From Bacteroidota bacterium (lineage in GTDB: Bacteria > Bacteroidota > Rhodothermia > Rhodothermales > UBA10348), in assembly GCA_027622005.1 (NCBI GenBank), contig JAQBZH010000019.1, forward strand, positions 1 to 46,715: a DNA stretch of 46,715 nt, given 5' to 3'. Shown here one piece after another: positions 38,387 to 40,954 of this stretch. A program made the position numbers and the translations under genes. Below the pieces are notes generated by a model, which was given only the letters and a program-made list of their open reading frames with translations, had not been told where the DNA came from and ran no database searches. Each line of letters starts with the position of its first letter. The first letter of the stretch is position 1.

Positions 38387-38413
38387 AAAAAAAGCCATCC
38401 CAAAAGGATAGCT
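38387..38413 (-). terminator. Intrinsic terminator of the structured RNA
   Basis: Read on the minus strand, AGCTATCC (from 38413) pairs with GGATGGCT with one U-G pair across a short T-rich loop, and is followed by a run of seven U. An A-tract precedes it. On the plus strand the wobble becomes a C-A mismatch and the U-run is shorter (five), so the minus direction fits better. It may still also stop the convergent HAD transcript. Confidence 0.85.
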
Positions 38414-39146
38414 CTTTTTAACGCTCCCTGACACGTGAACCTCCCCTGATCCTTTTCAATTGCCGAAGCAATCGCTTCGAACCAGTTAGTGGGAAGTTCG
38501 AATCTTAGTGTACTCCTTACCCACCGGCGAACCGGCGGATGAATCGCACACAAGTCGTTTCCAACTTGTCTTATGCCTCTACCGTATGGGCACACGATAA
38601 AGACGGCATCTCCGCAGGATATTTAGTGTTTCCAGCTTACCGCGCTCTTGCGAACGTTTCTGCTCGTCCCACCTACCATCTTGAATTCTATCGTCCTATC
38701 CGAAGATCGGACTCCATCATCGCGTGGCGAAAGTTTGCCTGTCCGTTGTTTCATGGCGTCGGCCGAAGCCAACTTCATTCCACTCCTTCTTAGCAAACAA
38801 AACGAAAGCCTCCAAAGCGCAACGCCGGGACGTGTTTGCTTTTTCTTCCTCCGCTTTCCTAACCATTCCGTTTTTTCCAAAGCCGAAGCTTCTTCTTGCC
38901 TGGTTTAGCGGCTCTCTTTGAATCCGGGATCACTTGCTGTCCAGCTCCGCTCTTTCGAGTTTCGCTTTTGAACATCCCCCCGATTCTCCGTTCGCCCAGT
39001 TACTACTCCAGCAACACACTCTCGAGAAGTGTACAGCCTTCATCATAGCGCCGCAGGAAACCTGTTTCATCCCTTTCGGGATTGTTGAGTCTACCTCATG
39101 CAGCCTAGAGATTCAGTCGCGTCAAAGAACTGTGCCGTGAAGCACT
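38387..39146 (-). ncRNA. Probable large structured non-coding RNA, about 760 nt, unknown class
   Basis: A near-consensus sigma-70 promoter upstream and an intrinsic terminator downstream define a minus-strand transcript with no plausible protein. Small hairpins capped by stable tetraloops recur. GAAA loops: 39069-39082, 38950-38959, 38551-38568 (7-bp stem). UUCG loops: 38880-38891, 38759-38772, 38694-38711, 38524-38535. GCAA loop: 38644-38655. A 7-bp stem joins 38496-38502 to 38476-38482, and its loop (CCCAC) is complementary to GUGGG just upstream, a possible pseudoknot. The ends are joined: UUUGACGC (39126-39119) pairs with GCGUUAAA (38424-38417), and after a purine-rich internal loop CUGA pairs with UCAG. 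I looked for RNase P, tmRNA, SRP, rRNA and group II intron domain V hallmarks and saw none. The 5' end is estimated from the promoter. Confidence 0.75.
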
Positions 39147-39152
39147 GATCCC

Positions 39153-39181
39153 ATTATATCGCGAAGTTTGAGGCGAGTCAA
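39153..39181 (-). promoter_or_regulatory. Near-perfect sigma-70 promoter for the structured RNA
   Basis: On the minus strand TTGACT (39181-39176) and TATAAT (39158-39153) are separated by exactly 17 bp and followed by GGGATCA. Only one base departs from the TTGACA/TATAAT consensus. It is the best promoter in the window and the reason to take the downstream RNA seriously. Transcription should start near 39146. Confidence 0.85.
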
Positions 39182-39236
39182 CCTTTGGGTACCCACTTTC
39201 CATCAACAAGAAACTCACAGGAGGTTAACAACGACT

Positions 39237-39264
39237 GTGCATAACACACTAACTCGTTATGCAC
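39237..39264. repeat. Inverted repeat with 9-bp arms, operator-like
   Basis: GTGCATAAC (39237-39245) and GTTATGCAC (39256-39264) are perfect inverted copies with a 10-bp spacer, one turn of the helix. The pair lies about 55 bp upstream of the -35 box of the structured RNA, a fitting place for a dimeric regulator; a small hairpin is the alternative. Confidence 0.6.
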
Positions 39265-39361
39265 GATTGCATTACGACTAGGACCGACTTCTAGGGAGAT
39301 GGCCTGGGCCCCGAATTCTACGCAGGCGTCCCGGAAAGTGGTCTACAAAAGGGCTTAACGG

Positions 39362-39396
39362 ACAAGAGGCCCGGTCCGAAGGACCGGGCCTCTTGT
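39362..39396. terminator. Very stable hairpin, probable terminator of the rhomboid gene
   Basis: ACAAGAGGCCCGGTCC (39362-39377) and its exact reverse complement (39381-39396) form a 16-bp perfect stem with a 3-base loop. No long U-run follows on either strand. It lies about 190 bp downstream of the rhomboid stop codon, and a terminator or transcript-end stabiliser is likeliest. Confidence 0.6.
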
Positions 39397-39496
39397 TGCC
39401 CAAATTCACTGCGCGACTGATTGCTTTCTGAAGAAAGCGCACTTCCAAGCGGCATGATTCAATGAAAATACGACACCAGTTGCCATTTTGCAACCA

Positions 39497-39582
39497 GCAA
39501 TAACGGCTACCTGCTGCCCTGATGCTCCTTTTGCACCATAAAATGCACTTTTAATTGTTCACATCGTCTTGCAATAACGGCT
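39497..39582. repeat. 12-bp direct repeat flanking a 62-bp segment
   Basis: GCAATAACGGCT occurs at 39497-39508 and again at 39571-39582, directly after the rhomboid gene. Twelve identical bases this close are unlikely by chance. It could be a duplication scar or a pair of binding sites. No transposon ends are visible between them. Confidence 0.6.
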
Positions 39583-40300: not shown

Positions 40301-40954
40301 TCAACTTGCTTTGGAAGCAAGTGCATCTATCCGAAGGCGACGCTCATTTCTCTTACATTCATCCCGCACCGATCTACAGAAACGCGCAATGCGCATCCGA
40401 AGAGCGGCATCCTCCATTCCTAGAATCGCTCCGATTTCGCGGTATGGCAACGGCTCGTCTGCCAATCTAAAGGACCATATTTTTCGAAGGGTATTATCAG
40501 CAGCTTCGAGTTTGCGCAGGGATGTGGTCAAACGCCTGTGGTCAAAGTCGTTTAGTTCGGATGTCTCGACCGGTTGTTCGCCGACATATTCTGCAAACTC
40601 GTCAGCGATAGAGAGGTCGCCGCCTAAAAATTCTCGCGTACGCCTGGCTCGCTTCCGGGATAGATGGCGAATAAGATTGTTTCTCAACATGCGCCTAACG
40701 TAGCGCGGCAACGTTTGGATGCGCGGAATGGCCCGCTGAAACTCCAACAAACTCTCTCCGGCAAGGTCCTGCGCGTCAAATAAGCTAAACAGCGGCTCTC
40801 GACTGACCTGAGAAGTAAAGTAGCGAAGGGCTTCGCTATAGACCCATGTCGAAAGATCGGAACGTGCGCTTTCACATCCAGTTTTTGCCTCCAAGAGTCG
40901 CTCAGGTAATGGGGATCTGGTGTCTAGTTGAGTAGAAATTGAAGTGGTTGACAT
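40301..40954 (-). CDS. ECF-type RNA polymerase sigma factor
   Basis: Sigma-70-family protein of 217 residues. Region 2 is seen as LFDAQDLAGESLLEFQRAIP and LPRYVRRMLRNNLIRHLSRK, with the DNA-melting and -10-binding helices. Region 4 is the C-terminal helix-turn-helix LPYREIGAILGMEDAALRMR. The linker is longer than in the smallest ECF factors (about residues 105-135, acidic). No anti-sigma gene is adjacent; the downstream neighbour is rhomboid. Control by a membrane anti-sigma factor encoded elsewhere, or by the linker itself, is possible. It is divergent from uspA, 148 bp away, hinting at a stress connection. Confidence 0.82.
   Translation of the reverse strand: MSTTSISTQLDTRSPLPERLLEAKTGCESARSDLSTWVYSEALRYFTSQVSREPLFSLFDAQDLAGESLLEFQRAIPRIQTLPRYVRRMLRNNLIRHLSRKRARRTREFLGGDLSIADEFAEYVGEQPVETSELNDFDHRRLTTSLRKLEAADNTLRKIWSFRLADEPLPYREIGAILGMEDAALRMRIARFCRSVRDECKRNERRLRIDALASKAS

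Follow-up and report, generated by a model that had tools for sequence, protein, structure and literature searches.

A large structured RNA of Rhodothermales and its probable small RNA partner

The window, the whole stretch of 46,715 nucleotides of Rhodothermales DNA analyzed here, carries on its minus strand a rhomboid gene followed by two putative non-coding transcription units. The protein encoded at 40301-40954 (minus strand), which adjoins the rhomboid gene, has a weak match to sigma-70 region 2 that lies below the Pfam cut-off. The larger of the two units was described in an earlier note as a structured RNA with a sigma-70 promoter, a terminator, and no credible protein. Its features are as follows, with H1, H2, and K denoting the three sites at which it is predicted to pair with the smaller RNA.

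38387-39147, minus: large structured RNA of about 760 nt, with homologues, a fold z of -6.9, and no Rfam match
38387-38413, minus: intrinsic terminator of the large RNA, a AGCTATCC-TTTT-GGGATGGCT stem-loop followed by T7
38426-38436, minus: 3' strand of helix P1, ACGUGUCAGGG, closing the ends of the large RNA with CUUUGACGCGA
38437-38499, minus: 3' domain hairpin, GAACYUCCC ... GGGAGGUUC, identified by eye
38577-38602, minus: K hairpin, with stem covariation; its loop GUGCCCAUA (38585-38593) is predicted to pair with the small-RNA linker
39094-39106, minus: site H2 (AGGCUGCAUGAGG), predicted to pair with the small-RNA 5' end; 87.3% of cells paired, four pairs changed on both sides
39112-39121, minus: site H1 (CGCGACUGAA/G); 93.5% of cells paired, two pairs changed on both sides
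39117-39127, minus: 5' strand of P1, CUUUGACGCGA, whose GCGA is also part of site H1
39132-39147, minus: 5' hairpin, GUGCY-UNAC-GGCAC, kept in the R1 alignment
39153-39181, minus: promoter TTGACT-17-TATAAT, kept in homologues

The promoter and terminator of the earlier description are borne out, the former matching the consensus at 11 of 12 positions and recurring as TTGAC-N17-TATAAT-like elements in relatives, where the large RNA measures about 500-1,070 nt. The absence of a credible protein also holds, as open reading frames (ORFs) differ between relatives with no shared reading frame found at the large RNA, and no Pfam match was found for the two largest minus-strand ORFs of the region. Close homologues are separated by gaps of 1, 2, 8, and 37 nt. 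Some 700 densely folded nucleotides come after the 5' hairpin and before the terminator. The minimum free energy of the large RNA is -277.6 kcal/mol (z = -6.9), and none of 20 shuffles folded equally well. At least eight tetraloop-capped stems had been claimed; the count of GNRA- or UNCG-capped stems of at least 4 bp is seven, so the number was too high, but the enrichment stands (1.3 +/- 1.2 in shuffles, maximum 6, n = 500).

The helix said to join the two ends fared in a similar manner. The exact pairing of UUUGACGC with GCGUUAAA is confined to the genus and is ruled out as a conserved end closure, while another end helix, P1, is conserved. In other relatives P1 consists of CCUUGACGCGA paired with UCGCGUCRAGG, and in one family of GAAGCGA with UCGCU, a C-G to A-U change seen by eye. 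The compensatory changes for which the earlier note had suggested looking are best tested within the large RNA in the K stem, where all nine of nine pairs covary (both sides changed somewhere in the order), giving a score of 0.636 against at most 0.228 in slid registers. By eye, the strands of the 3' domain hairpin also change in step (GAACCUCCC/GGGAGGUUC, GGGCCUCCC/GGGAGGCC, GAACCUUCC/GGAAGGUUC, and others). The middle part evolves fast. Tandem short UUCG-capped hairpins enlarge the large RNA at places that differ by lineage, as in the large RNA of locus L023 and the 5' parts of L088 and L193, and in L002 the expansion is a 37-nt duplication. Taken together, these comparisons indicate that the large RNA is a structured, non-coding RNA.

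No known class was matched when Rfam covariance models were searched. Rfam 15 gave no match at gathering thresholds in the window, none creditable to the large RNA at E values up to 10, and none at gathering thresholds over 14 divergent homologous loci. Ordinary RNase P and tmRNA were found elsewhere in the source genome (G000), and 6S RNA (RF00013) had no match in that genome. ROOL and GOLLD often lie by tRNA islands; no tRNA was found in the window. An association with Ro60 is ruled out by the lack of co-occurrence with TROVE (Ro60), which was matched in four of 114 genomes of the order, just one of them (G037) carrying the large RNA. The view that the locus codes for protein, or that it belongs in divergent form to an RNA class already described, is suggested by its size and look only; it is set against the Rfam result, the RNase P and tmRNA found elsewhere, and the lack of a conserved reading frame, and is scarcely probable. 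With homologues in about 11 families of Rhodothermales and compensatory base changes, the earlier suggestion of a possible new class gains support, and none of the outcomes named beforehand as refuting it was encountered.

The distribution of the large RNA was determined through a first DNA search of 60 related genomes, with homologues in 43, and through R1, a covariance model of the large-RNA 5' domain. R1 places the large RNA in 56 of 114 Rhodothermales genomes, in exactly one copy each, thus providing the homologues in related genomes that had been called for. Public contigs matching the large RNA are labelled Rhodothermales, and they include the complete genome of Roseithermus sacchariphilus (CP030158). 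R1 found no copy outside the order when run on 245 genomes from the class and 296 genomes from the phylum; the sole weak match (22.7 bits), in G197, lies within a coding gene and is rejected. Pattern matches in public contigs outside Rhodothermales were judged from their titles to be chance. No match to the large RNA was found in phage and plasmid collections, a single viral-contig pattern match being attributed to chance in what reads as coding DNA. Since roughly one in two of the sampled genomes of the order is without the locus, the system to which the large RNA belongs is dispensable at the scale of the order. It was not found in the sampled Rhodothermus- and Salinibacter-like genomes, which may explain why it was overlooked, and in the literature searched no paper joins Rhodothermales with "noncoding RNA", and none joins Rhodothermia with "ncRNA". 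Many of the sampled genomes are incomplete metagenome bins, and covariance-model E-values are rough.

The reading of the locus as a single RNA was correct in pointing to a new structured class but incomplete, as the large RNA is probably half of a two-RNA system. The earlier note overlooked a small RNA whose unit, with a promoter-like element and a terminator of its own, lies about 210 bases upstream of the large RNA on the same strand. This unit is placed between the rhomboid stop codon and an array of DnaA-box-like sites, as follows.

39361-39460, minus: small partner RNA of about 100 nt, scoring 85.7 bits (E 5.6e-22) with R2, the covariance model of the small RNA
39363-39395, minus: terminator of the small RNA
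39396-39404, minus: small-RNA linker with the letters UUUGGGCAA, or UAUGGGCAC in many relatives, and complementarity to the K loop
39412-39421, minus: small-RNA strand of H1, AUCAGUCGCG, complementary to large-RNA H1
39422-39439, minus: variable central hairpin of the small RNA
39445-39457, minus: small-RNA strand of H2, UCAUGCCGCUUGG, complementary to large-RNA H2
39465-39493, minus: promoter-like element TTGCAA-17-TATTTT, a consensus match only, its position kept in relatives

The R2 score at this locus is that of a sequence among those used to build the model. R2 places the small RNA in all 56 of the 56 large-RNA carriers. In 55 of these it adjoins the large RNA, and in the remaining one, a fragmented assembly, it is on a different contig; no case of the small RNA without the large RNA was found among the 114 genomes. 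The weak R2 matches elsewhere that were inspected align well over the terminator only and are rejected as solo small RNAs. In the non-carriers whose sequence was read, other sequence comes directly after the rhomboid gene, and neither RNA is present; in Salinibacter-like genomes and G056, an HAD hydrolase gene is next after the rhomboid gene. In the genomes sampled, the model searches indicate that the two RNAs are present together or absent together.

The three segments in which the large RNA is best conserved can base-pair with the conserved letters of the small RNA. This pairing was assessed in an intermolecular alignment, A2, of 37 distinct rows, with both strands of each pair taken from the same genome. 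In A2, 88.6% of cells are paired, and 11 pairs across H1, H2, and K have changed on both sides, five of them in the loop-linker contact of K. Cells changed on both sides number 32 against 10.0 in shuffles, and intermolecular covariation is 0.125 against 0.021-0.066 in slid registers. The A2 columns were partly chosen by hand and were checked with slid registers and by leaving out doubtful rows; without two rows whose K register had been set by complementarity, 10 pairs and 22 cells are left.

The K contact is the clearest of the three. Its loop/linker letters change from GCCCAU/AUGGGC to GCUCAU/AUGAGC in L028 and L082, to UGUCCAUG/CAUGGACA in L074, and to UCCACG/CGUGGA in L070 and L073, and K is absent in some lineages (L087, L088, and L089). 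Further examples of intermolecular pairing are AUGCCCAU with AUGGGCAU (L016) and CGCGAUGGAG with CUCCGUCGCG (L025). Duplex energies of the small-RNA 5' part with the large-RNA 5' domain give z values from -2.4 to -6.8. The conservation of H1 and H2 is partly invariance, which protein-binding sequences would predict equally. Overall, the covariation indicates that three intermolecular helices are under selection.

In two genomes, a two-gene insert of about 1.9 kb lies between the two RNAs. The insert is a pair of AAA ATPase and DUF4276-like genes that matches the PADLOC candidate defence system HEC-01 A/B (about 3009-4900 in L187 and about 3196-5070 in L188). Because the pairing sites are intact despite this insert, the RNAs are taken to act as separate transcripts. 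It is very likely, judging from sequence, that cells transcribe both RNAs and that the two assemble into a complex there, and probable that they constitute a bipartite RNA system of Rhodothermales with three binding sites. Both RNAs would be made from separate adjacent units and then bind each other. At H2, the small-RNA 5' segment CCUCAUGCCGCC would pair with CUAGGCUGCAUGAGG of the large RNA, and at H1, CUCAGUCGC with GCGACUGAG. At K, the linker AUGGGCAC would meet the internal-hairpin loop GUGCCCAU in a loop-linear kiss.

Pairing at H1 may have a structural consequence for the large RNA. Because the GCGA needed by H1 also closes P1, it has been proposed that binding of the small RNA loosens the ends of the large RNA and switches its form, for which the chances are put slightly below even. 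Co-folding opened P1 in 16 of 16 cases, but this is discounted as mostly a product of the nesting that the program requires; P1 and H1 cross and cannot be formed together by it, so the total disappearance of P1 is in part artefactual. The real competition between P1 and H1 concerns these four shared nucleotides only.

The same evidence has been weighed for two other relationships between the RNAs. Under antisense control of the ColE1 RNAI/RNAII kind, the small RNA would act negatively, binding the large RNA during its synthesis and refolding it or marking it for decay, and the large RNA would be the sole effector. The pairing of an RNA of about 100 nt with one of 500-1,000 nt, the loop contact, the sites near the large-RNA 5' end, the competition with P1, and two separately controlled promoters are all consistent with such control. 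However, the small RNA is encoded apart and is imperfectly complementary instead of lying opposite its target strand, and a shared complex fits at least as well with sites that surpass the rest of the large RNA in conservation and with joint presence and absence. Antisense control is considered unlikely. Less probable still is a sponge, in which the small RNA acts on mRNAs through a seed (CCUCAUGCC or CUCAGUCGC) and is titrated by the large RNA. Separate transcripts with three strong mutual sites would suit a sponge, as would a regulator site serving the small RNA specifically, but the ornate fold of 500-1,000 nt exceeds what a sponge needs, and the 114 genomes include no small-RNA carrier that lacks the large RNA.

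How the bipartite system might be controlled is suggested by two sets of elements upstream of the promoters.

39195-39275, strand not assigned: DnaA-box-like sites upstream of the large-RNA promoter, limits approximate, e.g., TTATGCACA at 39236-39244
39498-39506, minus: proximal CCGTTATTG site
39572-39580, minus: distal CCGTTATTG site, 74 bp from the proximal site and just past the rhomboid stop codon

Over 50 loci, DnaA-box-like matches with at most one mismatch number 104 against 11.4 in dinucleotide shuffles, and exact matches 25 against 0.74. These motifs are candidate DnaA sites, a motif match being short of proof of binding. The two CCGTTATTG sites are direct repeats upstream of the small-RNA promoter, and a pair 60-90 bp apart occurs once in the source genome. 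The spacings of such pairs cluster at 52-55, 62-65, 72-76, and 84-85 bp, which are whole helical turns of about 10.5 bp (Rayleigh p about 4e-9 over 27 groups, a generous value as the groups are related). Selection for such whole-turn spacing would be expected from a protein that joins the two sites through a DNA loop. Literature matches to CCGTTATTG look incidental from their titles. The chances are evenly balanced that transcription of the large RNA answers DnaA, and through it the replication state, while a looping regulator bridging the CCGTTATTG sites sets the small RNA. If the DnaA boxes are real, the large RNA would be tied to the replication cycle.

A DnaA-box-like array with direct CCGTTATTG repeats also recalls an element of a replication origin, or a primer of replication, equipped with DnaA boxes and repeats resembling iterons. 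Against this, the GC-skew turning points are distant from the locus in three complete genomes, by about 0.4-0.5 Mb in G036 and, in rougher estimates, by about 1 Mb in G032 and roughly at least 0.35 Mb in G058, and the locus is missing from about half of the order. By GC skew the origin lies elsewhere in these three genomes, which largely rules out the locus as oriC, and an origin element or primer of any kind is very improbable. For the two-RNA complex, it is conceivable that it scaffolds or regulates some process linked to replication or growth, a replication-linked role being unlikely on balance. A fuller proposal, itself doubtful, is a new kind of bacterial two-part machine in which the working form of the large RNA requires the small RNA, DnaA controls the large RNA and a DNA-looping regulator the small one, and assembly reports the replication cycle.

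Bacterial large RNAs of unknown function are few, and three of them, OLE, ROOL, and GOLLD, have been solved as homo-oligomers. The large RNA resembles these in its hundreds of nucleotides, many hairpins, lack of a protein, and little-known function (PMC12286853). OLE, ROOL, and GOLLD form homo-oligomers with kissing-loop contacts between chains, and phages and prophages carry the genes for ROOL and GOLLD (PMC12286853). In contrast, the conserved intermolecular contacts predicted for the large RNA are with a different, dedicated small RNA; the large RNA is chromosomal, with no copy in the viral, phage, or plasmid collections searched, and has no sequence or Rfam match to the three. As these contacts with a second, co-inherited RNA are readable from covariation, the interaction is directly testable by compensatory mutants.

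In ColE1, RNAI of about 100 nt pairs through loop contacts with the folded RNAII of about 550 nt, to which it is fully complementary, being encoded on the opposite strand. The present pair shares the small and large sizes and, by sequence comparison only, a contacted loop at K, whereas its small RNA is encoded upstream as a unit of its own, on the strand that also carries the large RNA but beyond its limits, and is matched to it at three short sites. Bacterial sponge RNAs are alike in that one non-coding RNA pairs with another, but the large RNA greatly exceeds them in length and shows covariation within its own fold. The likeness to Ro60-associated Y RNA is that of a structured, non-coding bacterial RNA. 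Since the large RNA has no match to OLE, ROOL, or GOLLD, makes its outside contacts with another RNA, and has a small partner that is not cis-antisense, the comparison places it under no known family. Both the sequence family and the arrangement of two RNAs are new, and less so if the function should prove to be plain antisense control.
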